Positions 69 to 11,132 of a stretch of DNA of 59,441 nt are shown here, in pieces. Below the pieces are notes generated by a model. It saw only the letters and a program-made list of their open reading frames with translations. It had not been told where the DNA came from and searched no databases. Each line of letters begins with the position of its first letter. Position 1 is the stretch's first letter. The stretch lies in the NCBI GenBank assembly GCA_027623205.1, contig JAQBYC010000011.1:1-59441 (forward strand). The letters are read 5' to 3'. This stretch comes from Pseudomonadota bacterium. GTDB taxonomy: Bacteria; Pseudomonadota; Alphaproteobacteria; GCA-2731375. The translations under genes were made by a program, and so were the position numbers.

Positions 69-1475
69 ATGAAAGCCATGACAAAGAATTGTAACGGGTC
101 GAGTGATACTCCCGGCGAACTACCCATCGAGGCATTGACCGGCAGCGTCAGGGATTTCCAGGAGTTGCGCGGCAGCGACCTGATTGGGCGGGTTCAGCCG
201 TTTTTTGACTGGCAGGATCTACGCCGGCAGCACGATCTCTGGTCCTATTCGAAGGCCACGAATACGGCGCCTACGTCCCATAGCGCGGCCACCAGTGACA
301 GCGGGGTCCGTACTGCTGGCGTCAACTTCGCGTCGCAAGACTATTTAAGCTTGTCGTCCCATGAGGCCGTCAAAGCAGCCGCCAAGGCGGCTATCGATGA
401 ATATGGCGTACATAGCGCCGGCTCCAGCGCATTGCTGGGTAACACCCGGTTTTCCCTCCAGTTGGAGCAAGTTGTTTCAGAATTCCTGGGCTTTGAACAT
501 ACGGTACTGTATCCCACCGGCTGGTCCGCCGGTTTTGGCGTCGTGCAGGGGTTGGTGCGGCCGGACGATCACGTGCTGATGGATATTCTCACGCACTCCT
601 GTCTGCAGGAAGGCGCAAAGGCGGCTACCCGGAACATCCATTTCCATGGTCATCTCAATGTTGACCGCGCCCGGCAAAGGCTTGCGAGGATCCGCGCCAA
701 CGATCCAAACAACGCCATCATGGTGATTACTGAAAGCCAGTTTTCGATGCATGCCGATACACCGGACCTGCGTGGGTTGCATGACGTTTGCCGCGAGTAC
801 AATGCGCTGCTGGTCATCGACGTGGCGCACGATCTTGGATGTGTCGGCGAAACCGGCCATGGGCAACTCGGCCTGCAAAATATGCTTGGCGATGCGGATC
901 TGATTATCGGCAGTTTTTCCAAGACCTTCGCCTCGAATGGCGGTTTCGTCGCCACCCGGTCACGAGCGGTTAAGGAATATCTGAAGTATTATAGCGCCAC
1001 GCAGACCTTCTCCAATGCTATGTCCCCGGCACAGGCGGCGAGCGTCCTGCAAGCTTTCGAGATCGTTCGCTCGGACGAGGGCGCAGCGTTGCGGCGCAAA
1101 CTAATGGACAATGTCCTGTACCTGCGGGCCGAACTGGGAAAGGCCCGGCTGGAAGTTACAGGCGTTCCGGGCGCCGTTGTCCCTGTAAATATCGGGACTG
1201 AAGGCTCGGCCCGTATCGCCGCGCGTCGACTGGCTGAACTCGCCGCGATCGTCAATCTCGTCGAATATCCCGCGGTGCCCAAGGGCAATGCCCGCTTTCG
1301 ACTTCAGGTAATGGCCAACCACAATAAGAAGGACATCGATACGCTGGTTAGGCTGATGGCCACCGCGGTGAAAGAGGCCGAGGTTCTCTTTCGCCCCTAC
1401 GGACAGGAATTGGCGGCAACCGCCATTCCAACCCCAATTCGACAAAGTGCTGCTCGACAAAGTGCTGCGACTTGA
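69..1475 (+). CDS. Alpha-oxoamine synthase-like PLP enzyme (BioF/Kbl/CqsA superfamily)
   Basis: This is a fold-type I PLP enzyme of the family that condenses an amino acid with an acyl-CoA to give an alpha-aminoketone (8-amino-7-oxononanoate synthase, 2-amino-3-ketobutyrate ligase, serine palmitoyltransferase, CqsA-type autoinducer synthase). The sequence shows NFASQDYLSLSSH near residue 90, an aspartate-histidine pair in VIDVAHDLG (usually DEAH-type), and GSFSKTFASNGG with the Schiff-base lysine at K285. An N-terminal extension of about 85 residues precedes the catalytic fold. At 468 aa it is longer than BioF or Kbl (about 390-400). The C-terminus ends in a duplicated RQSAA motif made by a 15-bp tandem repeat. 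The start is uncertain: ATG 69 has only a weak GAGCGGGG upstream, and ATG 78 is an alternative. No biotin, threonine or quorum-sensing partner is adjacent, so the substrate cannot be assigned. Confidence 0.8.
   Translation: MKAMTKNCNGSSDTPGELPIEALTGSVRDFQELRGSDLIGRVQPFFDWQDLRRQHDLWSYSKATNTAPTSHSAATSDSGVRTAGVNFASQDYLSLSSHEAVKAAAKAAIDEYGVHSAGSSALLGNTRFSLQLEQVVSEFLGFEHTVLYPTGWSAGFGVVQGLVRPDDHVLMDILTHSCLQEGAKAATRNIHFHGHLNVDRARQRLARIRANDPNNAIMVITESQFSMHADTPDLRGLHDVCREYNALLVIDVAHDLGCVGETGHGQLGLQNMLGDADLIIGSFSKTFASNGGFVATRSRAVKEYLKYYSATQTFSNAMSPAQAASVLQAFEIVRSDEGAALRRKLMDNVLYLRAELGKARLEVTGVPGAVVPVNIGTEGSARIAARRLAELAAIVNLVEYPAVPKGNARFRLQVMANHNKKDIDTLVRLMATAVKEAEVLFRPYGQELAATAIPTPIRQSAARQSAAT
1440..1469 (+). 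repeat. 15-bp tandem duplication at gene 3' end
   Basis: Two copies of CGACAAAGTGCTGCT (the second ending in G) lie head to tail in frame and duplicate RQSAA at the C-terminus of the PLP enzyme. It looks like a recent slippage event in a non-conserved tail. Confidence 0.85.
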
Positions 1476-1481
1476 ATGTGG

Positions 1482-1507
1482 CTTCAGAAATGCGACGTCG
1501 TCTGAAG
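1482..1507. terminator. Possible hairpin between convergent genes
   Basis: CTTCAGA (1482-1488) pairs perfectly with TCTGAAG (1501-1507), just after the stop of the PLP enzyme and ahead of the convergent response regulator. No T-run follows, so an intrinsic terminator is only a suggestion. The rest of 1508-1692 holds nothing recognisable. Confidence 0.3.
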
Positions 1508-1692
1508 ATTAGCCGCGACAGCTCCTGGGCCGCTAAGGCGGACCGGCGTTGGCGCGACCCCCAAAATCAACTGGCCAGCGGCGCGCCTCCGAGTGCTGGC
1601 CCGCCCGAGTAATGCCCGTCCTGAATTGATGAACATCGAAAAAGGACGCGGCTGATCGGATTCACCGCGGCGGCTACGGACCCATGCGGCCG

Positions 1693-2076
1693 CTAACAAT
1701 TCGCCGATAGCGAGGGATCCAAACAGGCTTTAATTTTTTCGAGCAGGCGTGGCAAATTTATAGGCTTGGTGTCGAAGTCAGCACAGCCGGCCTCGATGCT
1801 CTTCGCCAGATCTGTGGCGAGGGCATGGGCGGTCAAGGCAATGATCGGAATGCCGGCTATTTCAGGATTGGCCTTGATCCGCCGGGTTGCTTCCCAGCCG
1901 TCCATCTCACCCAGCGCGATGTCCATCAGAATTAAATCTGGTTTTTCGCTTGCCGCCATGGCGACTCCGACAGGCCCATCGACCGCGAAGCACATGCTGT
2001 AACCACGCCGCAGCAGTCGGCGCCCAAGCATATCCCTGTTCATTTCGTTGTCTTCGACCAATAGAATTTTTGGCAT
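1693..2076 (-). CDS. Single-domain response regulator (DivK/CheY-like)
   Basis: This stand-alone receiver domain of 127 aa has no output domain. From MPKILLVEDN it carries the acidic pair at E8/D9, the phosphoacceptor D52 in LILMDIALGEMDG, a threonine in ALTAHA and the conserved lysine in DTKPINL, so it should be phosphorylatable. I chose the ATG at 2076 over one 33 bases upstream because receiver domains begin at this point. It starts 26 bases beyond the stop of the hybrid kinase (2102), in the same direction, so the two are probably co-transcribed and cognate. Being a single domain, it would act by protein-protein contact or as a phosphotransfer intermediate, as DivK does. The pathway is unknown. 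Confidence 0.9.
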   Translation of the reverse strand: MPKILLVEDNEMNRDMLGRRLLRRGYSMCFAVDGPVGVAMAASEKPDLILMDIALGEMDGWEATRRIKANPEIAGIPIIALTAHALATDLAKSIEAGCADFDTKPINLPRLLEKIKACLDPSLSANC

Positions 2077-2101
2077 TTTCCGTTTCCCGACTCGCCGAGC
2101 G

Positions 2102-3967
2102 TCAACCATTCCCCGAGATTATCGCCAGCAGGTCATGGGCGATTTGTTGGGGGTCGTTGCCAGAAGCGTCAAGTGTCTTGTCGACCCCGCCTATCCATGC
2201 GTCGGATTTATTGGTGCGGATCGAGACCAATCTAGGCATTGGCTTGGGATCAACGGCATTGGCAAACGCCTTCAGGAAGTCAAAATTATTGTTTGGCGTG
2301 TCGATCTTTCCCAATAGTACGGCATGCGGCCGCGCGATGCGGGCTTGCGCCAATGCGTCATCGACGGAGGCCACTGCGATCACCGCGAGGTTCTCCCGGC
2401 GCAACAGTTCCACTACCTCCACGCTCAATGCACCATTCGCGCCGACGACCAATACCGAGCCCGGCTGATCATCGGAACACGGTGCCGCCAGTTCGTTGTC
2501 GATCACTGGAACGGCTGGACGGTTGCCCGTCATCGATGCCGCCTCGGTTTCGCCTGGCTCCGTGGCTGCTGTTGCGACCGTCGGCGGTCTCGTCGGCAGG
2601 CGAATCGTAAAACATGCACCGTTGCCAAATTCGCTCTCGACCGTGATATCGCCACCCATCAATCGGCACAACTTGCGGCTCACCGCCAAGCCAAGGCCGG
2701 TTCCGCCAAACTCCTGGGCGATGCCCGAATTAACCTGGCTGAAATTCTGAAACAATTGCGGCAGATCGGCTTCACGGATGCCGATGCCTGTATCAGCAAC
2801 GCTGATGGTAAACCATCGGCCCGTCGCGCCGTCCTCCAGCTTGCTTTCGAGCGTGATCCGCCCGTTGGAGGTGAACTTGCCCGCATTGCTCAACAGATTG
2901 ATCACCGCCTGGCGCAGTTTCGTCATGTCGCAGGTAACGGTGCCCAGTCCAGGCCCTTGGTGGATAATGAGTTGGTTGGCATTTTTTGCCAAGACCGGCC
3001 GGCAGGTATATGCCACATCGTCGATGAAGGCGGGCAGTTCGAACGGCTCGGAATAAAGCTCCGTCTTGCCTGCTTCGATCTTCGAAAGATCCAGAACATC
3101 GGTGAGCAATGACAATAGGTGCATGCCTGCCCGGTTGATCTTTTCCAGATCGGCGATCTCCTCGCCGCGGCCACTGAGCTCGGCATCCTCGAGCAGCAAT
3201 TCACTATAGCCGATCACCGCGTTCAGTGGCGTCCTCAACTCATGACTCATCTTGGCCAGGAATTCTGATTTTGCGGTATTCGCCTGCTCCGCCGCATCCT
3301 TGGCTTCGCGCAATTCGGCCAAAGTGATGCGATGGCGGTGGACTTCGCGCTGCATATCAGACTCCGACGCGACGATGTTGGCGTAATAGACTGCCATCAG
3401 TGAAACGTATATCGACGCGCAGAAAATTGAAATCATGCCGACGCCAACGATGTCCGACATCCGCACATGAAAGGGAAAGCCGCCGTTCAGCGCATAAGCT
3501 GCATAAAAGCCCAGCAAGTTGACGCAGAGGATGCCAATCACCGCGATACGAAATCGAAACGCCGCACCCAGATAGTAGAAGGCCAGTAGCGGCACCATCA
3601 GCAACCATGGCATGAATGGCGAACTGACGCCGCCATAAAAGAAGCAACCCCAAAGCGTCGCAAATGTCAGATTTTGCACCGATAATAACGCCAAGGCGTG
3701 GTAGTGGCCGGTCAGCCGGAGCGCCATTGGGAACAGCCAGAACGCCAGGATTGAAAAACCGAGAATAGGCACATGCGGAATCGGGTCGGGATCGATGACT
3801 AAGAGCGATATCGTGATCGGGTGTCCGAGAAACGGTCCGAATAAATGAGAGATAACGAACATCCGCGCCCGTGGCGCCAGATCGATGTCCTGTTTGATCC
3901 ACGAAGGAATGAACCAGTCGACGACCAAATACACCAAACTTAGCGAATTTTTCAGATGCCATGCCAT
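2102..3967 (-). CDS. Membrane hybrid histidine kinase with degenerate C-terminal receiver
   Basis: This sensor kinase has about six hydrophobic segments in the first 210 residues, a short coiled coil (LAELREAKDAAEQANTAKSE), a HisKA domain FLAKMSHELRTPLNAV with phosphoacceptor H242, and a HATPase_c domain with NLLSNAGKF (N box), DTGIGI (G1) and GGTGLGLAVSRKL (G2). The last 115 residues have receiver-like spacing, but the acidic pair and phosphoacceptor Asp are missing: LVVGANG stands where VVEDN is expected and AVLLGKID where LLLDI is expected. Phosphoryl flow therefore probably goes to the neighbouring free receiver. I place the start at ATG 3967, which has GGAG nine bases upstream. ATG 3982 is the alternative. 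The signal sensed is unknown. Confidence 0.88.
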   Translation of the reverse strand: MAWHLKNSLSLVYLVVDWFIPSWIKQDIDLAPRARMFVISHLFGPFLGHPITISLLVIDPDPIPHVPILGFSILAFWLFPMALRLTGHYHALALLSVQNLTFATLWGCFFYGGVSSPFMPWLLMVPLLAFYYLGAAFRFRIAVIGILCVNLLGFYAAYALNGGFPFHVRMSDIVGVGMISIFCASIYVSLMAVYYANIVASESDMQREVHRHRITLAELREAKDAAEQANTAKSEFLAKMSHELRTPLNAVIGYSELLLEDAELSGRGEEIADLEKINRAGMHLLSLLTDVLDLSKIEAGKTELYSEPFELPAFIDDVAYTCRPVLAKNANQLIIHQGPGLGTVTCDMTKLRQAVINLLSNAGKFTSNGRITLESKLEDGATGRWFTISVADTGIGIREADLPQLFQNFSQVNSGIAQEFGGTGLGLAVSRKLCRLMGGDITVESEFGNGACFTIRLPTRPPTVATAATEPGETEAASMTGNRPAVPVIDNELAAPCSDDQPGSVLVVGANGALSVEVVELLRRENLAVIAVASVDDALAQARIARPHAVLLGKIDTPNNNFDFLKAFANAVDPKPMPRLVSIRTNKSDAWIGGVDKTLDASGNDPQQIAHDLLAIISGNG

Positions 3968-4370
3968 TCGCGCATTCTCCATCGCACAAGAAATATTCGC
4001 AATAGCTTATAGTAAGCGGAAACTGTCTGATGATTTCCCGACGATGGCCATAATTTGGTAAACAAAAGGTTAACTGCGAGCCGACGGATCTAGATCTAGG
4101 GGCGATCGAAATTGCCTTGCTTCAGCTGTGAAATCATCTGCCGAACGCGCTCGACCTTCCGCTACCAGGGAAGGCAGCGCAAAGGCGCTGCTTTGCGGAT
4201 CCGCTCTCCCATATCGAAAATGCTCTATCGTCTGTCGCACAGGACAACCCGCTCGACGTTGGCGTCAACAATTGCGGCCGCGGTTGGCTGCCGGTTCAAT
4301 CGTTTCCGGTCTGACCGGCGTCGGCCCGGGGAAGGCCGCGCGGGGCTCAGGCCGTCAATTCGGCGCCGGT
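3968..4370. other. Non-coding stretch between two kinase genes
   Basis: About 400 bases without a convincing gene. The half nearest the hybrid kinase is AT-rich and holds a CtrA-like site (4058-4074), as expected for a minus-strand promoter region. Near 4174-4191 there is a 7-bp stem (GCAGCGC/GCGCTGC) with an AAAG loop. Open frames on the plus strand here match no family I know and start without a ribosome binding site. Confidence 0.5.
4058..4074 (-). promoter_or_regulatory. CtrA-like binding site upstream of hybrid kinase
   Basis: Read on the minus strand, the sequence is TTAA, seven bases, then TTTAC. The alphaproteobacterial CtrA consensus is TTAA-N7-TTAAC, so there is one mismatch. It lies about 90 bases upstream of the hybrid kinase start. 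The site is short, so chance occurrence is possible. Confidence 0.35.
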
Positions 4371-5432
4371 CTACGTTCGGCCATCCAGGACCTCGCGCAC
4401 CCGCTGGGCCAGAATAGCGGACTGATACGGTTTGTATATAAACGCCATATTCTCGTCGATCTGGCCTTGACGACCGAGGACATCCCGGGAGTAGCCCGAT
4501 GAAAATAGCACGCCGGCCGCCGGATATCGTTCGCGGAAGGCGGCGGCGATTTCGCGCCCATTCATCCCACGGGGCAGGATCATATCAGTTAGCAGCAGGT
4601 CGATCTTGCTGGCAGCGGCCATCGCCTCCAGCGCCGCCGGGCCGTCCCCTGCCTCTAGGACGGTGTAGCCGAGGCGGCTGAGCGCCCGCACAAGGTAACT
4701 CCGCAGGTCCGCGTTGTCCTCGACCACAATGATCGTTTCGTCGCCCGTCGGCTTGCTCTTTTGGGGCACCCTAGGGGCGGGTTCGACGTTAACCGTCTGT
4801 TCGGCCCTGGGCAGATGGATCCTGACCGTCGTGCCGTGCCCAATTTCGCTATAAATCGCTACGTGGCCGCCCGATTGTTGGGCGAAGTCAAACACCTTGG
4901 TCAGGCCCAACCCAATGCCTTTACCGCCGTCCTTGGTGGTGAAAAAAGGCTCGAACGCCTGTGCTAAAACGTCCGCCGGCATCCCGATGCCGCTGTCACT
5001 AATAGCGATGGTCACATAGTCTCCAGGCGCCAGGTTCTCTGGTCTTGCAGTATCGTCTTCTTTCAGAATCTGGTTGGCCGTTTCGATCGTTAGCCGCCCG
5101 CCTTCGGGCATGGCATCGCGGGCGTTGACGGCGAGGTTCAAAAGCGCGGTTTTCAAGTGCCCGGCATCGACCATGATCGGCCAAGGATCCGCCGCCGGCT
5201 TAATCTCAATGGCGATGTCTGCCCCAATTTTGAGCGCGGCAAGTTGCTGGAACTGAGGCAGCACCTCGTTGATTCGGGTGAGCGCCACCTCGGTTTGCTG
5301 GCGCTCCGTCGCACGTTGCTCCAACTCGATAATGCATTGGCGGAGTGCCAGCACATCATCGACGAGTTCGTCTTTTTGTTTACAGGCCAGCTTCGATCGT
5401 CCGCTGCCGGACCCGAAAGTTGGCGTTTCCAT
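4371..5432 (-). CDS. Kinase-ATPase/receiver protein lacking the DHp histidine domain
   Basis: This 353-aa protein joins a HATPase_c domain (NLAVNARDAMP, ISDSGIGMP, GKGIGLGLTKV) to an intact receiver (IIVVEDNADL, phosphoacceptor D283 in LLTDMILPRG, conserved K in IYKPYQ). Proteins of this architecture normally carry, after a coiled coil ending in a QxMxALGxL motif, an H-box (AHDFNN) and a dimerisation helix pair. Here the coiled coil (residues about 20-62, ending FQQLAAL) runs directly into KIGADIAIEIKP, which corresponds to the stretch just before the ATPase domain. The roughly 80-residue segment with the phosphoacceptor histidine is absent with the frame intact. The protein may be a non-kinase regulator, phosphorylate in trans, or be decaying. 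A GGGGGCGG precedes the ATG at 5432. Confidence 0.85.
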   Translation of the reverse strand: METPTFGSGSGRSKLACKQKDELVDDVLALRQCIIELEQRATERQQTEVALTRINEVLPQFQQLAALKIGADIAIEIKPAADPWPIMVDAGHLKTALLNLAVNARDAMPEGGRLTIETANQILKEDDTARPENLAPGDYVTIAISDSGIGMPADVLAQAFEPFFTTKDGGKGIGLGLTKVFDFAQQSGGHVAIYSEIGHGTTVRIHLPRAEQTVNVEPAPRVPQKSKPTGDETIIVVEDNADLRSYLVRALSRLGYTVLEAGDGPAALEAMAAASKIDLLLTDMILPRGMNGREIAAAFRERYPAAGVLFSSGYSRDVLGRQGQIDENMAFIYKPYQSAILAQRVREVLDGRT

Positions 5433-5843
5433 GACCGCCCCCTAGATAGACCATGGCAAGACTCATGATCAGACTCAATACGGCACAAAAATTGTGCAAT
5501 AACATTAACCAACGGTGAATCCGTCCTGAATAGGAATGCCAGGAAAATCACCGGATTTCCCGAAACATTTCTTCTTCGGGGCGATGCCTATTCATCGGGA
5601 CGTATCCAGCACCTTGTCAATGCCCACAATTTTAGGTCTGCGGATATTGAAGCAATCTAGCACGGCGGTCAATTCGCCGAAACCCGCTATCAGAAAATGG
5701 AGGTATGAGTGGAATTACCTGTATCGCCGTTCCCGTCTCAGCGGACGATTTGGACCAACCTTGAAATGCCCTGGCGGCAGATCTGCGATTTTGACGCCCG
5801 TATTTCTGAACACAACCAAATGTTTGTCTCGGCCCAGCCGCGC
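5433..5843. other. Non-coding stretch, possible gene remnant
   Basis: About 410 bases between a kinase gene and an SDR gene, both on the minus strand. The part next to the kinase is AT-rich and includes TTAACCAACGG (from 5505), resembling half a CtrA site. At 5705 a plus-strand ATG just after GGAGGT opens a 19-codon frame (MSGITCIAVPVSADDLDQP) that stops at once. It could be a decayed gene start or chance. Nothing else is recognisable. Confidence 0.4.
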
Positions 5844-6595: not shown

Positions 6596-7573
6596 TTACT
6601 GTAGTTCATCTTCGATATAGGCGGATATTACATCCCCGATGTTGCTGTCGCTAGGGAAACCCAAGCTAGCGGCCTTGACCGACGACGTAGTCTTGGGCCA
6701 ACCGTCGACAATGGCCTGAATTTGCGGATCCACCTGGAATGTAATCCGGCCCCGCGTGCGATTGGTTTCCACCGCCTGCACGGCTGCCGCCACATCACCC
6801 ATGGAGACGGAGAAACCGGACAATAAAATCGCCCGGGACGCGCCCAATCGGGCGCTATCCAATTCATGCATATGCATGAAGCACTCCACCACCGTGCGCG
6901 GCGACATAATCGCCATGCGGGATTCCGGCGTCACCGGGCAAACCATGTCGACGCCGTTCAAGGGTTCGCGGATAATCCCCGAGGCGAAACCAGAGGCCGC
7001 CTTGTTTGGCTTGCCCGGCCGCACCACAATGGTTGGCAGGCGCATGGCCCGGCCATCGATATAGCGCTTGCGGCTGTAGTCCGTGATGAGGAACTCGCCG
7101 ATTACCTTCTGGGCGCCATAGGAGGTTTCCGGTGTGATCGGAGTTTCATCCACCACAGTATCCGGTACCTCGCCGCCATAGACCGCCAGGGATGAGGCGA
7201 AGACCACGCGCGGCGTTCCGTCCGCGGCCCGGGCCGCTTCCAAGACGTTTTGGGTACCGGCCAAATTGACCTGATAGCCCAGATCGAATTCGGCCTCCGC
7301 GCCGGCGCTGACCACGGCGGCGAGGTGAAATACGCTGTTGGTATGGACATCGATGACCTCGGCCACGAGGCCGGCATCGGTGATGTCGCCGGTGATGGCC
7401 CGGACGCGCTCATCCGCCAATTCGCCATCGGATGGCGCTACGGCGTCGAACAAAACCAGATCCGTCACCGGCTCCGCATGTCCCGACGGTCCGATCAGAT
7501 CACCCTGGGCCAATATGCGCTGGGCTAATTTACGGCCGATAAATCCAGCGCCACCCGTAATCACCACTTTCAT
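6596..7573 (-). CDS. denD: NAD-dependent epimerase/dehydratase family, D-erythronate dehydrogenase-like
   Basis: This extended SDR of 325 aa starts MKVVITGGAGFIGRKLAQRIL (Rossmann GxxGxxG) and has the LVLFDAVAPS segment typical of the DenD group, an SLAVYGG region and catalytic Tyr-x-x-x-Lys in YGAQK. DenD enzymes oxidise D-erythronate to 2-oxo-D-erythronate in four-carbon acid sugar catabolism. The start is the ATG at 7573, with AAGGAG eight bases upstream; a TTG one codon earlier is ignored. The usual partners (OtnI isomerase, four-carbon acid kinase) are absent here. Instead the gene sits between an aminotransferase and a DHRS6-like SDR. The family is clear and the substrate is an inference. 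Confidence 0.75.
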   Translation of the reverse strand: MKVVITGGAGFIGRKLAQRILAQGDLIGPSGHAEPVTDLVLFDAVAPSDGELADERVRAITGDITDAGLVAEVIDVHTNSVFHLAAVVSAGAEAEFDLGYQVNLAGTQNVLEAARAADGTPRVVFASSLAVYGGEVPDTVVDETPITPETSYGAQKVIGEFLITDYSRKRYIDGRAMRLPTIVVRPGKPNKAASGFASGIIREPLNGVDMVCPVTPESRMAIMSPRTVVECFMHMHELDSARLGASRAILLSGFSVSMGDVAAAVQAVETNRTRGRITFQVDPQIQAIVDGWPKTTSSVKAASLGFPSDSNIGDVISAYIEDELQ

Positions 7574-7629
7574 CAAATATGCTCCTTGGCATTTGCCCTA
7601 TGGATCAAAAAAATCATCGTCTGCTATCA

Positions 7630-8829
7630 TCACGCCAGCAAGGGTTCCAGGCGGTCCATGGCATCGTCCAGACGGTCCAGGGTTTGGGCGAAACAGAGGC
7701 GGATAAAACCTTCGCCCTGTGGGCCGAACGCCGCGCCGGGCGCCAGGCCGACGCGGCTTCTTAGGAGGATCTCTCTGCATTTGGCCAGGGAATCGTCCAT
7801 GCCGTCCACCGCAAAGAAGGCATAGAACGCCCCTTCTGGGCGATGCACCCGTACCTTTGGCATGCCTTGCAGCCGGTCGATGACCAGATCGCGGGCCAAT
7901 TTGTACTGGGCGACGGTGTTGCGGACGAATGCCTCGCCTTTGCGCACGGCGGTGATGCCGGCTACTTGAGAGAAATGCGCCGGGCAGGAATAGTGGAATT
8001 CGATCATTTTTTCCAAGGTCGGCATCAGGGCTGCTGGCGCGGTCAACCAGCCCAGCCGCCAACCCGTCATGCACCATGATTTGGAGAAGCTGTTGACCAC
8101 CACAAGGCGGTCGTCGGGTTCCGCGATTTCCAAAAACGACGGGGCGACGGGACGATCATAGACGACCCGGGCATAGACTTCGTCACTCAGCACCCAAATA
8201 CCCCTGGCACGGCAAAAATCCAGCACCTCTTTCATTTCATGCCGGGTCATGACCCAGCCGGTGGGATTGGAGGGGGAATTGATCAGGATCGCTCGCGTGC
8301 GGCTATCGACCAGGTCAAACATCTGATCCAAGTCCAAGCTCCAGCCCTGGTTGCCGAACTGCAACCAGGCAAAGCGAGGCTCGCCGCCCATGACGCGGAT
8401 GGTTTCGATCAGATTTGGCCATACCGGCGCCGTAACAACCACATTATCGCCTGGATCCGTCAAAACCTGCTGCATCAGGTTTGTCGCGCTCATGCCAGAG
8501 GCGGTAACGGCAACACGCGTGTAATCGACCGGGCGTTGATACAACTGACTCATATATTCGGCCAGGGCTACGCGTAGACCGGGGATGCCAAAATTTTCGG
8601 TATAAAAAGTATCACCCTGGGCCAGCGAGGCAGCGGCGGCCTGGCAAATAAATTCCGGCGTTGGCAGGTCTGGTTCGCCGTACCAAAGAGCGATAATGTC
8701 TTCCAAACCCATACCTGCGTTGGCCACGTCCCGGATCAGGGAGCCGCCCAACCGTTCCACCGTCGCCCGGGCGCCGGCGGGACCGCTGGACAACTTGTCC
8801 GCGTGGGTAATGTTTTGCATTTTGGTCAT
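7630..8829 (-). CDS. Class I/II pyridoxal-phosphate aminotransferase
   Basis: This 399-aa fold-type I aminotransferase resembles aspartate aminotransferases. It has GEPDLPTPEFI near the N-terminus, substrate and PLP contacts INSPSNPTGWV, LSDEVYARVVYD and the Schiff-base lysine in VVNSFSKSWCMTGWRLGWL. I chose the ATG at 8829 because GGGGAG lies five bases upstream; a longer frame to 8877 would overlap the divergent CDF gene. It is the first gene of a minus-strand set with the DenD-like and DHRS6-like dehydrogenases. A substrate route through a keto or hydroxy acid is plausible but unproven. The 41-base gap to the divergent CDF gene must carry both promoters. Confidence 0.88.
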   Translation of the reverse strand: MTKMQNITHADKLSSGPAGARATVERLGGSLIRDVANAGMGLEDIIALWYGEPDLPTPEFICQAAAASLAQGDTFYTENFGIPGLRVALAEYMSQLYQRPVDYTRVAVTASGMSATNLMQQVLTDPGDNVVVTAPVWPNLIETIRVMGGEPRFAWLQFGNQGWSLDLDQMFDLVDSRTRAILINSPSNPTGWVMTRHEMKEVLDFCRARGIWVLSDEVYARVVYDRPVAPSFLEIAEPDDRLVVVNSFSKSWCMTGWRLGWLTAPAALMPTLEKMIEFHYSCPAHFSQVAGITAVRKGEAFVRNTVAQYKLARDLVIDRLQGMPKVRVHRPEGAFYAFFAVDGMDDSLAKCREILLRSRVGLAPGAAFGPQGEGFIRLCFAQTLDRLDDAMDRLEPLLA

Positions 8830-8870
8830 ACCGCTCCCCAATGTCAGGCGCCTTGGTATAGCATGGCCGA

Positions 8871-9782
8871 ATGGCAAGTGGTTCCTCGAAATTGGCGGTA
8901 TATGCGGCGTTGGCGGGCAACCTGGCCATCGCCGTGATCAAGTTCGCGGCGGCTATGTTCACGGGCTCATCCGCCATGCTGTCCGAGGCTATTCACAGCC
9001 TGGTGGATACGGTCAATCAGACACTGTTGCTGTATGGCATGCATAGAGCCGCGTTGCCGGCCGATGCGCAGCACCCTTTTGGTTACGGCAAGGAGCTCTA
9101 TTTTTGGAGCTTCGTGGTTGCCATTTTAATTTTCGGCCTGGGCGCAGGATTTTCGATTTATGAAGGGCTGCACGGTATTCTACGGCCCAGGCCGATCGAA
9201 AATGTTGGGATCAGTTACCTGGTTCTGTGCCTGGCCCTGCTGTTCGAAGGCGGCGCGGGATTCCTGGCCCTGCGCCAGTTCCTGGCGGAAAAGGGTGATC
9301 TGGGCTTTTTCGCCGCTGTGCGGCGGGGCAAGGATCCTGCCCTGTTCACGGTGTTGTTCGAAGACGGCGCGGCGATCCTGGGCCTGATGATTGCCATGAC
9401 GGGCATTTTTCTGGGCCAGCAATTGCAGTTGCCCTGGCTGGATGGTGCTGCGGCCATCGTCATTGGGCTGGTGCTGGCCGGGGTTGCCGTGTTTCTGGCT
9501 TATGAATGCAAGGCGCTACTGATCGGTGAGGCGGCGGAGCCGCAAATCGTGGAAAGTTGCCGGGCGCTTTTGAATGGCGATCGCCGGGTGGTGCGGGTAG
9601 CTGGTATCCGGACCATGCATTTAGGCCCGCGGGAAATTCTGTTGGTGGCGGACCTGGATTTTGCCGATGGTCTGGTCTCGGATCAGGTGGAAGCCGCGAG
9701 CGCCGAATTGGAGATCAAATTGCGCGCGAATTTCCCTGAAATCCGTCACATCTATTTGGAATCCAGAAGTTTGGCGCCCTAA
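8871..9782 (+). CDS. Cation diffusion facilitator family metal transporter
   Basis: This 303-aa inner-membrane protein shows the CDF pattern: SEAIHSLVDTVNQ with the HxxxD metal site in TM2, the cytoplasmic HPFGYGKELYFWSF segment, LFEDGAAILGL in TM5 as the second half of the transport site, and a C-terminal cytoplasmic domain ending in IYLESR. Such proteins exchange Zn, Fe, Co or Cd ions for protons. There is no His-rich loop, so the metal cannot be predicted. It is transcribed divergently from the aminotransferase. No strong ribosome binding site is visible before the ATG. Confidence 0.9.
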   Translation: MASGSSKLAVYAALAGNLAIAVIKFAAAMFTGSSAMLSEAIHSLVDTVNQTLLLYGMHRAALPADAQHPFGYGKELYFWSFVVAILIFGLGAGFSIYEGLHGILRPRPIENVGISYLVLCLALLFEGGAGFLALRQFLAEKGDLGFFAAVRRGKDPALFTVLFEDGAAILGLMIAMTGIFLGQQLQLPWLDGAAAIVIGLVLAGVAVFLAYECKALLIGEAAEPQIVESCRALLNGDRRVVRVAGIRTMHLGPREILLVADLDFADGLVSDQVEAASAELEIKLRANFPEIRHIYLESRSLAP

Positions 9783-9896: not shown

Positions 9897-11132
9897 ATGA
9901 CGCATCTGTTTATCCTCGCTTCCTATGCGGTGGTTTCTGCCGCGGCCGGCTTTGTGCTGTCGCAGTCGTTGACTCAACTCGCACCGACGACCTGCTATCT
10001 GATTGCCGGAGCTGGTTTTTTCACTGCCGCCCTGGCCCACGAAATTTTCTCTCGCCGCATCGAGCAGCGCGATATGATAAGCCAGTTGGACGCGGCCTTT
10101 GACGAAATTGATGAAATGCGCGAGTCCAATCTCGATCTGACGGAGAACCTGGTCCGGGCCCGCGAGGAAATGGTGGTCTTGAGCGTGGCGGTCGAATCCG
10201 CCGCCGCCGGTACCAATGAGGCGTTGGTCCGGGAAATGAAAGTGTTGCGATCGCAATTGGGTCATATGCAAAAGGTGGAACGGCCCAGGGCAAAGCGGTC
10301 AGGCCGGGAATGGCCAGGCGATAGGCCAGAGATTATGCCGTCGGCATCTGATCCGAGCGGCGTAGAAGCGACGATCAATAGACAGGAAATCCTTGGCCAT
10401 ATCCGCGAGGCTTTGGAAACCAACCGCATTGATCTATATTTGCAGCCGATCGTCAGCCTGCCACAGCGGCGCACCCGGCACTACGAAGCGTTCTCGCGCA
10501 TCCGGACCAGCGACGGCCGAATTGTTGCGGCGCAGCAGTATCTGGAAGTGGCCAAGCAGGAAGGTTTGATTGGAACCATAGATAATCTGTTGTTAATGCG
10601 TTGCGTCCAGCTTCTGCGGCGAAACGAAAAGCGGCAAACGGAGTCCAGCTTTTTCGTCAATATCTCGCAACACACGTTGAACGATGAGGGTTTCCTGGCG
10701 CAGTTCATCGATTTCATGGCAAGCAATCCCACTCTTGCCGCGCGCTTGATTTTTGAAATCGCCCAGCAGGATGTTGCCGCGCTGTCCAAGGTGGCGTTGG
10801 CGCAGTTGGGTCGCCTCGGCGAATTAGGTTTCCGCTTTTCCATGGATCAAGTCGATACCTTGGAGATCGATTTCCAGGATCTGGCGCAGTCCCATTTCCG
10901 TTTCATAAAAATTCCCATCAACCTGTTGCTGACCCTGCCGGAAGACGGCATGAATTGGGTGCATCCGCGCAACTTGAAAGCCAAGTCGGCGGTCTCGGAA
11001 ATCAATCTGGTGGTGGAACGGATCGAACAGGAATCGGACGTTATCGAAATGCTGGAATATGGCTTTGACTATGGCCAGGGTTTTCTGTTCGGTGCGCCAC
11101 GGCCAAGCCGCGAAGCGGCCCGCGCGGCATAG
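9897..11132 (+). CDS. tipF: TipF-like membrane EAL-domain protein, partly degenerate active site
   Basis: This 411-aa protein has two hydrophobic N-terminal segments (residues 1-45), a coiled coil (about 50-125), a linker and an EAL domain (about 160-400). The same order is found in Caulobacter TipF, a c-di-GMP receptor needed for flagellum assembly. The EAL signature reads YEAFSR (E197), QPIV and FVNIS are kept, and FEIAQQD, FRFIKIP and DYGQGF keep the Glu, Lys and Gln. However, the DDFG loop is SMDQVD, losing one metal-binding Asp. It may therefore bind c-di-GMP without hydrolysing it. GAGGTGG precedes the ATG, and a TTAACC half-site for CtrA lies about 65 bases upstream. No flagellar genes are in the window, so the name is tentative. 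Confidence 0.6.
   Translation: MTHLFILASYAVVSAAAGFVLSQSLTQLAPTTCYLIAGAGFFTAALAHEIFSRRIEQRDMISQLDAAFDEIDEMRESNLDLTENLVRAREEMVVLSVAVESAAAGTNEALVREMKVLRSQLGHMQKVERPRAKRSGREWPGDRPEIMPSASDPSGVEATINRQEILGHIREALETNRIDLYLQPIVSLPQRRTRHYEAFSRIRTSDGRIVAAQQYLEVAKQEGLIGTIDNLLLMRCVQLLRRNEKRQTESSFFVNISQHTLNDEGFLAQFIDFMASNPTLAARLIFEIAQQDVAALSKVALAQLGRLGELGFRFSMDQVDTLEIDFQDLAQSHFRFIKIPINLLLTLPEDGMNWVHPRNLKAKSAVSEINLVVERIEQESDVIEMLEYGFDYGQGFLFGAPRPSREAARAA

Follow-up and report, generated by a model that had tools for sequence, protein, structure and literature searches.

CckA-type hybrid histidine kinases, known in NCBIfam as PRK13557 / HisKinCckA, carry PAS, HisKA, HATPase and receiver (REC) domains in that order. 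They are the nearest described relatives of the short protein reported here, both by sequence (282 bits to PRK13557 and 251 bits to CckA) and by fold, since Foldseek ranked the catalytic/ATP-binding (CA) domain of CckA (5idm) first for its ATP-binding domain. The receiver of the short protein also has an FxSGY motif. Unlike CckA-type kinases, the short protein has no PAS domain and no HisKA, and its gripper, G2-box and beta5 residues are changed. It scored below the curated cut-off in all 25 NCBIfam families shown, which were the best 25 of the 99 matched.

In the available text of PMC3591291, the split kinases CheA3/CheA4 of Rhodobacter likewise include a catalytic-type protein without its own phosphoacceptor. 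Those proteins belong to the CheA family, whereas the short protein has changes at its docking and gamma-phosphate residues and an attached receiver. CheA4 retains its dimerisation domain. DivL keeps its DHp domain, with Tyr in place of His, keeps its PAS domains and has no receiver. It acts by binding a receiver protein (PMC4211667), while the laboratory-evolved ChrS pseudokinase is broken in its CA domain and still forms heterodimers (PMC9491836); as far as the accessible parts of these two reports go, both likewise reuse the histidine-kinase fold without autokinase activity. The opposite half of a split from that of the short protein is also on record: according to the available text of PMC3591291, 1556 of 42417 HisKA proteins in SMART have no HATPase domain.

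The FATGUY proteins MrrA, SdrG and CpdR (PMC9981736) and Osp (PMC9430884) are free receivers that accept phosphate from hybrid kinases or bind to them. In the accessible portions of these sources, Osp is a single-domain protein and MrrA, SdrG and CpdR are described as Rec-only, whereas the receiver of the short protein is fused to an ATP-binding domain. The stas_STYK, SpoIIAB/RsbW-type serine/threonine kinases resemble the short protein in having HATPase without HisKA, but they target STAS proteins and their HATPase is PF13581, not PF02518 followed by a receiver (PMC9239204, partial text). We found no described HATPase-receiver protein without HisKA among the open-licence papers searched, and such proteins may well exist unannotated.

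The window, that is, the whole stretch of 59,441 nucleotides analysed here, encodes such a protein on the minus strand at 4371..5432. From its sequence, we give even chances to the view that a kinase became, after the loss of its PAS and phosphoacceptor domains, an ATP-binding, response-regulator-like accessory protein that is phosphorylated in trans.

Architecture and distribution of the short protein

The open reading frame runs from 5432 to 4371, starts with ATG and encodes 353 residues, exactly as in the original prediction. An orthologue, L075:10261-11319(-), was found in G002, another species of the genus. Pfam detected HATPase_c (89-210) and Response_reg (234-345) alone and no HisKA, in agreement with the predicted absence of the histidine domain. 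Translation of window positions 3983-5843 in all six frames showed no H-box motif, nor did the matching stretch of the orthologue, and Pfam and the motif scan gave no DivL-type altered-acceptor DHp in the short protein. When the HisKA region of a relative was compared with the same two stretches by tblastn, only the start of the ATPase part matched at E <0.1; in G002, this match possibly includes the tail of the second DHp helix. In both species an in-frame stop lies four codons 5' of the ATG, so there is no hidden longer N-terminus. Thus, the HisKA/DHp domain with its phosphoacceptor His is absent, flanks included. The other two features of a hybrid kinase are present: a HATPase_c domain with its predicted nucleotide-binding residues (N103, D146, F163), and a receiver with the acidic pair (E238, D239), Lys (K334) and the phosphorylatable Asp, which is D283 as predicted.

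The product can be divided into three parts. The N-terminal header helix/coil comprises residues 1-51 (5280..5432, minus strand), the CA region residues 54-213 (4794..5273, minus strand), in which N103, D146 and F163 are kept and I173, K179 and D182 are altered, and the receiver residues 232-353 (4374..4739, minus strand), in which D283, S312 and K334 are kept and F331 occupies the beta5 switch position. The FATGUY-type motif F/Y-x-S/T-G-Y at beta4 reads FSSGY in the window and YASGH, with the final residue changed, in the orthologue. A loss of the receiver Ser/Thr in the orthologue (A311) was considered and ruled out, because the FxSGY motif places the functional Ser at S312, which both proteins keep. 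The AlphaFold2 model (9-row alignment; mean pLDDT 76.9, pTM 0.50) showed a helix at 10-47 followed by CA and receiver folds, the arrangement of the domains being unreliable. Of the seven registers for residues 11-48, the best has hydrophobic residues at 7 of 11 core positions in each of the two orthologues, an uncontrolled count that is compatible with a coiled coil.

The G002 protein matched over residues 1-352 and is a 355-residue open frame, 68% identical to the window protein. It shares the architecture and the gene neighbourhood of the short gene, and G002 was the sole genome with such a match besides the window's own among the 11 genomes of the genus. A search with residues 1-100 gave full-length matches in 2 of the 15 family genomes, which are also the 15 genomes of the order. 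In a sample of 385 genomes from the class it again gave 2, although a distant case could be missed there because at most 12 candidates were scored per genome. A scan of the contigs of named relatives gave only 8 distant loci, 28-37% identical in the structure-model alignment. A clade of homologues without HisKA, as the original prediction had envisaged, does exist, with two known members; this architecture with this origin is known from these two sequences. The prediction would have been overturned if all homologues carried the histidine domain; the orthologue is without it, and 66 of the 70 collected rows (window included) have an H-box.

Probable origin from a multi-PAS hybrid kinase

A two-sequence profile of the N-terminal 51 residues aligned with the very start of a G009 protein (E 1.3e-7) that consists of a header, three PAS domains, HisKA, HATPase and a receiver. 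Since the N-terminus matches this three-PAS kinase, about 470 residues are missing relative to the G009 protein, and the lost stretch probably comprised the PAS array and HisKA. The loss had been put at some 80 residues including AHDFNN. The AHDFNN region is indeed missing, but the loss appears larger, and the similarity of the header to the start of a multi-PAS kinase speaks against a deletion of just 80 residues. For the same reason, the coil does not correspond to the linker before the H-box, as first proposed. The join can be placed only inexactly, between residues 37 and 52; either the header coil or the last part of DHp helix 2 could be the source of the segment 37-51.

A tree built from 35 ATPase-receiver regions joined the short proteins of the two species as a 100/100 pair. 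Another branch with 100/100 support holds this pair within 25 rows, 22 of which have an H-box; the three without it are the two short proteins and L026, whose sequence breaks off at the end of a contig. The tree did not resolve the nearest kin of the pair within the 25-row clade. The data indicate that the short pair forms a clade nested in a radiation of hybrid kinases that carry HisKA. One relative in the window's own genome, an 869-residue protein on contig C75, is 64% identical in the ATPase-receiver region and carries AHDFNN, and other HisKA-bearing relatives in this genome are 37-48% identical. We propose that the ancestral gene encoded a multi-PAS hybrid histidine kinase, that its PAS array and whole phosphoacceptor/dimerisation domain were lost in the common ancestor of the two species, and that the product was then retained. 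An in-frame deletion, one of the options of the original prediction, fits this origin, but not as a recent defect or a misassembly, given the orthologue in G002. If the domain-loss reading is true, the locus documents how a kinase can become a regulator through the loss of a domain.

ATPase-receiver relatives are numerous in the genus. At E 1e-20, 9-20 were found in 10 of the 11 genomes (G000-G010) and 2 in G001, and a tight subset of them is closely related in the tree.

Conserved gene neighbourhood

The adjacent gene (2102..3982, minus strand) encodes a multi-TM histidine kinase with both HisKA and HATPase_c, a candidate partner whose orthologue in G002 is 85-86% identical and lies in the same place. 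It is overlapped by the gene of a single-domain response regulator (1693..2109, minus strand; 85% identical in G002). The order short gene, kinase, regulator and BioF-like gene is common to both species, with protein identities of 68, 86, 85 and 84%, respectively. Of the 15 family genomes, the 2 with the short gene are also the 2 with the close kinase orthologue. Matches to the adjacent kinase at 1e-60 were present in 7 of the 15, the next best being 35-50% identical.

The C-terminus of the adjacent kinase (window 2102-2500) looks receiver-like by eye, without a recognisable phosphoacceptor Asp, and Pfam finds no domain there; the G002 kinase orthologue (492 residues) has no such C-terminal extension. 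Within window 69-3982, a gene for a PLP acyltransferase of the BioF/Kbl family adjoins the multi-TM kinase and the single-domain regulator, an arrangement conserved in G002. The acyltransferase scored 257 bits with bioF, 217 with serine palmitoyltransferase and 169 with alpha-hydroxyketone autoinducer synthase, all below the cut-off. A distant BioF-like gene (25-26% identity) adjoins 2 of 6 paralogous TM kinases (L135 and L138) in the stretches examined. The CqsA/CqsS and LqsA/LqsS autoinducer systems have a similar layout. Further along the window, an open reading frame of 411 residues (9897-11132, plus strand) is EAL-domain-like by eye, with EAF replacing EAL, and its product is possibly a non-catalytic relative of c-di-GMP phosphodiesterases.

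Residue changes relative to HisKA-bearing kinases

The aligned set comprised 70 ATPase-receiver regions from 80 sources. Each row had the N-box motif plus 225 further residues, duplicates were dropped, and the sample consists of the retrieved loci, which are a part of all matches in the genus search. Because rows were selected by the N-box motif, which requires N at 103 and permits N or E at 99, these two positions are not independent evidence. The positions discussed below were chosen after inspection of the alignment, without correction.

D146, F163, D239, D283 and K334 were invariant in all 66 H-box kinases and in both short proteins, and position 312 was S or T in the 66 and S in the pair. 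The ATPase boxes, said at first to be intact, are so at N103, D146 and the FEPFFTT box of the window protein, but not at the G2-box: position 173, the gamma-phosphate Ser/Thr, is S/T in 66/66 H-box kinases, I in the window and R in the orthologue. The gripper at position 179, which docks on the histidine domain, is uncharged in all 66 (M in 65, T in one) and is K in the window and R in the orthologue. Both short proteins have D at position 182 (G in 65, N in one), K at position 94 (E in 64, D in one, Q in one) and F at position 331, the receiver beta5 switch (L/V/M/I in 65, F in one). The orthologue additionally shows N99E and Y314H, which could be drift. The number of changes is unremarkable, because shared clade-specific changes number 6 (5 identical) in the sister kinases L031/L065 and 8 (5 identical) in the short pair; the argument rests on which residues changed.

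In a HMMER alignment to 9qjg, positions 163, 173 and 179 correspond to F330, T340 and V346 of LvrB (CA chain 9qjg, numbered with an offset of 209 from 8vc9), and the three letters agree. The G2-box Ser/Thr is not universal: PhoQ and CheA are active kinases with Val in its place. In the available text of PMC13269768, autophosphorylation was abolished or substantially lowered in LvrB mutants at F330, T340 and V346. Judged by its spacing of three residues from the conserved lysine that follows, and not by direct alignment, position 331 corresponds to CckA F670; this residue is aromatic at the receiver switch position, yet CckA shows no allosteric change (PMC9981736).

These positions bear on a rather unlikely explanation, in which the freed CA domain serves in trans as the kinase for a partner's histidine, and the receiver either reclaims the phosphoryl group or regulates the complex. 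The kept D146 and F box would suit a split kinase of this kind, as would the HisKA-bearing relatives in the same genome, among them the one with 64% identity; in the available text of PMC3591291, EnvZ domains remain functional as separate pieces and CheA4/CheA3 is a naturally occurring example. However, the I/R at position 173 and the charged gripper at 179 have no counterpart among the 66 H-box relatives, and, the short coil aside, the dimerisation domain is absent. With gamma-phosphate and docking residues changed in both orthologues, the earlier idea that the protein phosphorylates a partner kinase seems disfavoured.

Selection on the short gene

The window and G002 proteins align over 352 columns with zero gaps, and the genes are stop-free at a dS of about 0.7. 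The dN/dS (NG86) was 0.28 for the short pair, 0.134 for the adjacent kinase and 0.129 for the BioF-like gene. Within the short pair it was 0.26 for CA (bootstrap 0.15-0.41) and 0.14 for REC (bootstrap 0.08-0.24), with 0/300 replicates at or above 1 in either domain. Seven full-length pairs gave ranges of 0.12-0.24 for CA and 0.10-0.20 for REC. The receiver is therefore constrained as in intact kinases, its value lying within their range, and the relaxation of CA is modest, its value lying just above. At the most similar dS, the CA dN was 0.223 in the short pair (dS 0.85) and 0.108 in the full-length pair L011/L013 (dS 0.88), whereas the REC dN was alike (0.104 and 0.103). The short gene is under purifying selection in both domains.

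The difference between the domains would fit a protein in which REC alone matters, as a phosphate sink or pure receiver, with the ATPase domain a passenger or a scaffold on its way out: REC evolves like the neighbouring genes and CA faster. We consider this improbable, since the CA value is far below 1 (bootstrap 97.5% limit 0.41), the 352 columns are gap-free, and D146 and F163 are kept. It is very unlikely that the gene is a decaying remnant of a deleted hybrid kinase. The architecture did arise via domain loss, and at the 116 positions that hardly vary among 22 full-length kinases, where the full-length rows keep 91-100%, the window protein departs at 13 and the orthologue at 19; a second truncated copy in G002 (L080, see below) may itself be such a remnant. 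A decaying gene is nevertheless hard to reconcile with a gap-free and stop-free alignment between two species at this dS and a dN/dS of 0.28, with the conserved gene order and with the kept receiver site residues. An assembly artefact that removed the HisKA coding stretch has a negligible probability, for although the genome is a draft of 228 contigs, the same junction in a second genome (G002, 389-kb contig) rules out misassembly, and a collapse with a paralogue at the junction is implausible because the closest own-genome paralogue is 73% identical in DNA.

The same stripped gene with matching changes in a second species is thus probably a working accessory regulator and not a broken gene. 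The shared architecture and neighbourhood, together with purifying selection, bear out the suggestion of a real non-canonical regulator in the original prediction.

Proposed function

We believe that the accessory protein phosphorylated in trans would work as follows. Because it has no DHp domain, it should be unable to phosphorylate itself. Its CA domain would no longer dock on a histidine domain as a kinase, and the changed docking and gamma-phosphate residues suggest that it does not serve as kinase for other DHp domains. Since CA is still constrained and its nucleotide residues are kept, we infer that it is an ATP/ADP-dependent binding module on a coiled-coil scaffold. Since the receiver is constrained as it is in full-length kinases, a histidine-bearing kinase probably phosphorylates it in trans at D283. 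The simplest donor would be the adjacent membrane kinase, as conserved linkage and co-occurrence, these alone, point to it; HisKA-bearing relatives elsewhere in the genome may also contribute. Phosphorylation would alter the binding of the short protein, for which a partner is possible, and make it a response-regulator-like modulator or a phosphate sink of the pathway.

A more specific version of this proposal is tentative. Domain loss may have turned the hybrid kinase into a regulator that gained an aromatic switch and lost the docking and gamma-phosphate residues of CA, so that a receiver-gated ATP-binding output would modulate the pathway of the neighbouring kinase.

The locus is a natural, conserved experiment on a histidine kinase minus its defining domain. 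Two orthologues and 66 H-box relatives from the family show which residues were released or newly fixed once CA was without its own histidine. The role of a free catalytic domain with a receiver is directly testable, with intact relatives as controls.

Other short-looking loci

An N-box/H-box frame scan covered 20 loci, L006 and L007 included. Five frames had an N-box and no H-box (L076, L077, L079, L080 and L105), four loci (L104, L108, L109 and L111) had no motif-matching frame, and, L075 aside, the other scanned loci had an H-box. The orthologue locus L075 was missed by the frame motif because of N99E. L076 and L079 are cut by a contig end. At L077:6611-9166 (+), on contig C64 of G010, an in-frame stop separates PAS-HisKA (6611-8197) from HATPase-receiver (8198-9166); the interruption is a sequencing error, a pseudogene or a real split. 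At L105:3613-4428 (+), on contig C400 of G008, a HATPase-receiver frame of 272 residues without an H-box begins inside the ATPase domain.

A second HisKA-less HATPase-receiver ORF, of 343 residues, lies at L080:8434-9465 (+) on contig C30 of G002. It falls outside the 25-row clade and has the canonical residues at positions 173, 179, 182 and 331, and its origin evidently differs from that of the short pair. By eye, a PAS-like coding remnant is seen just upstream of its start, and L080 may be a recent truncation.
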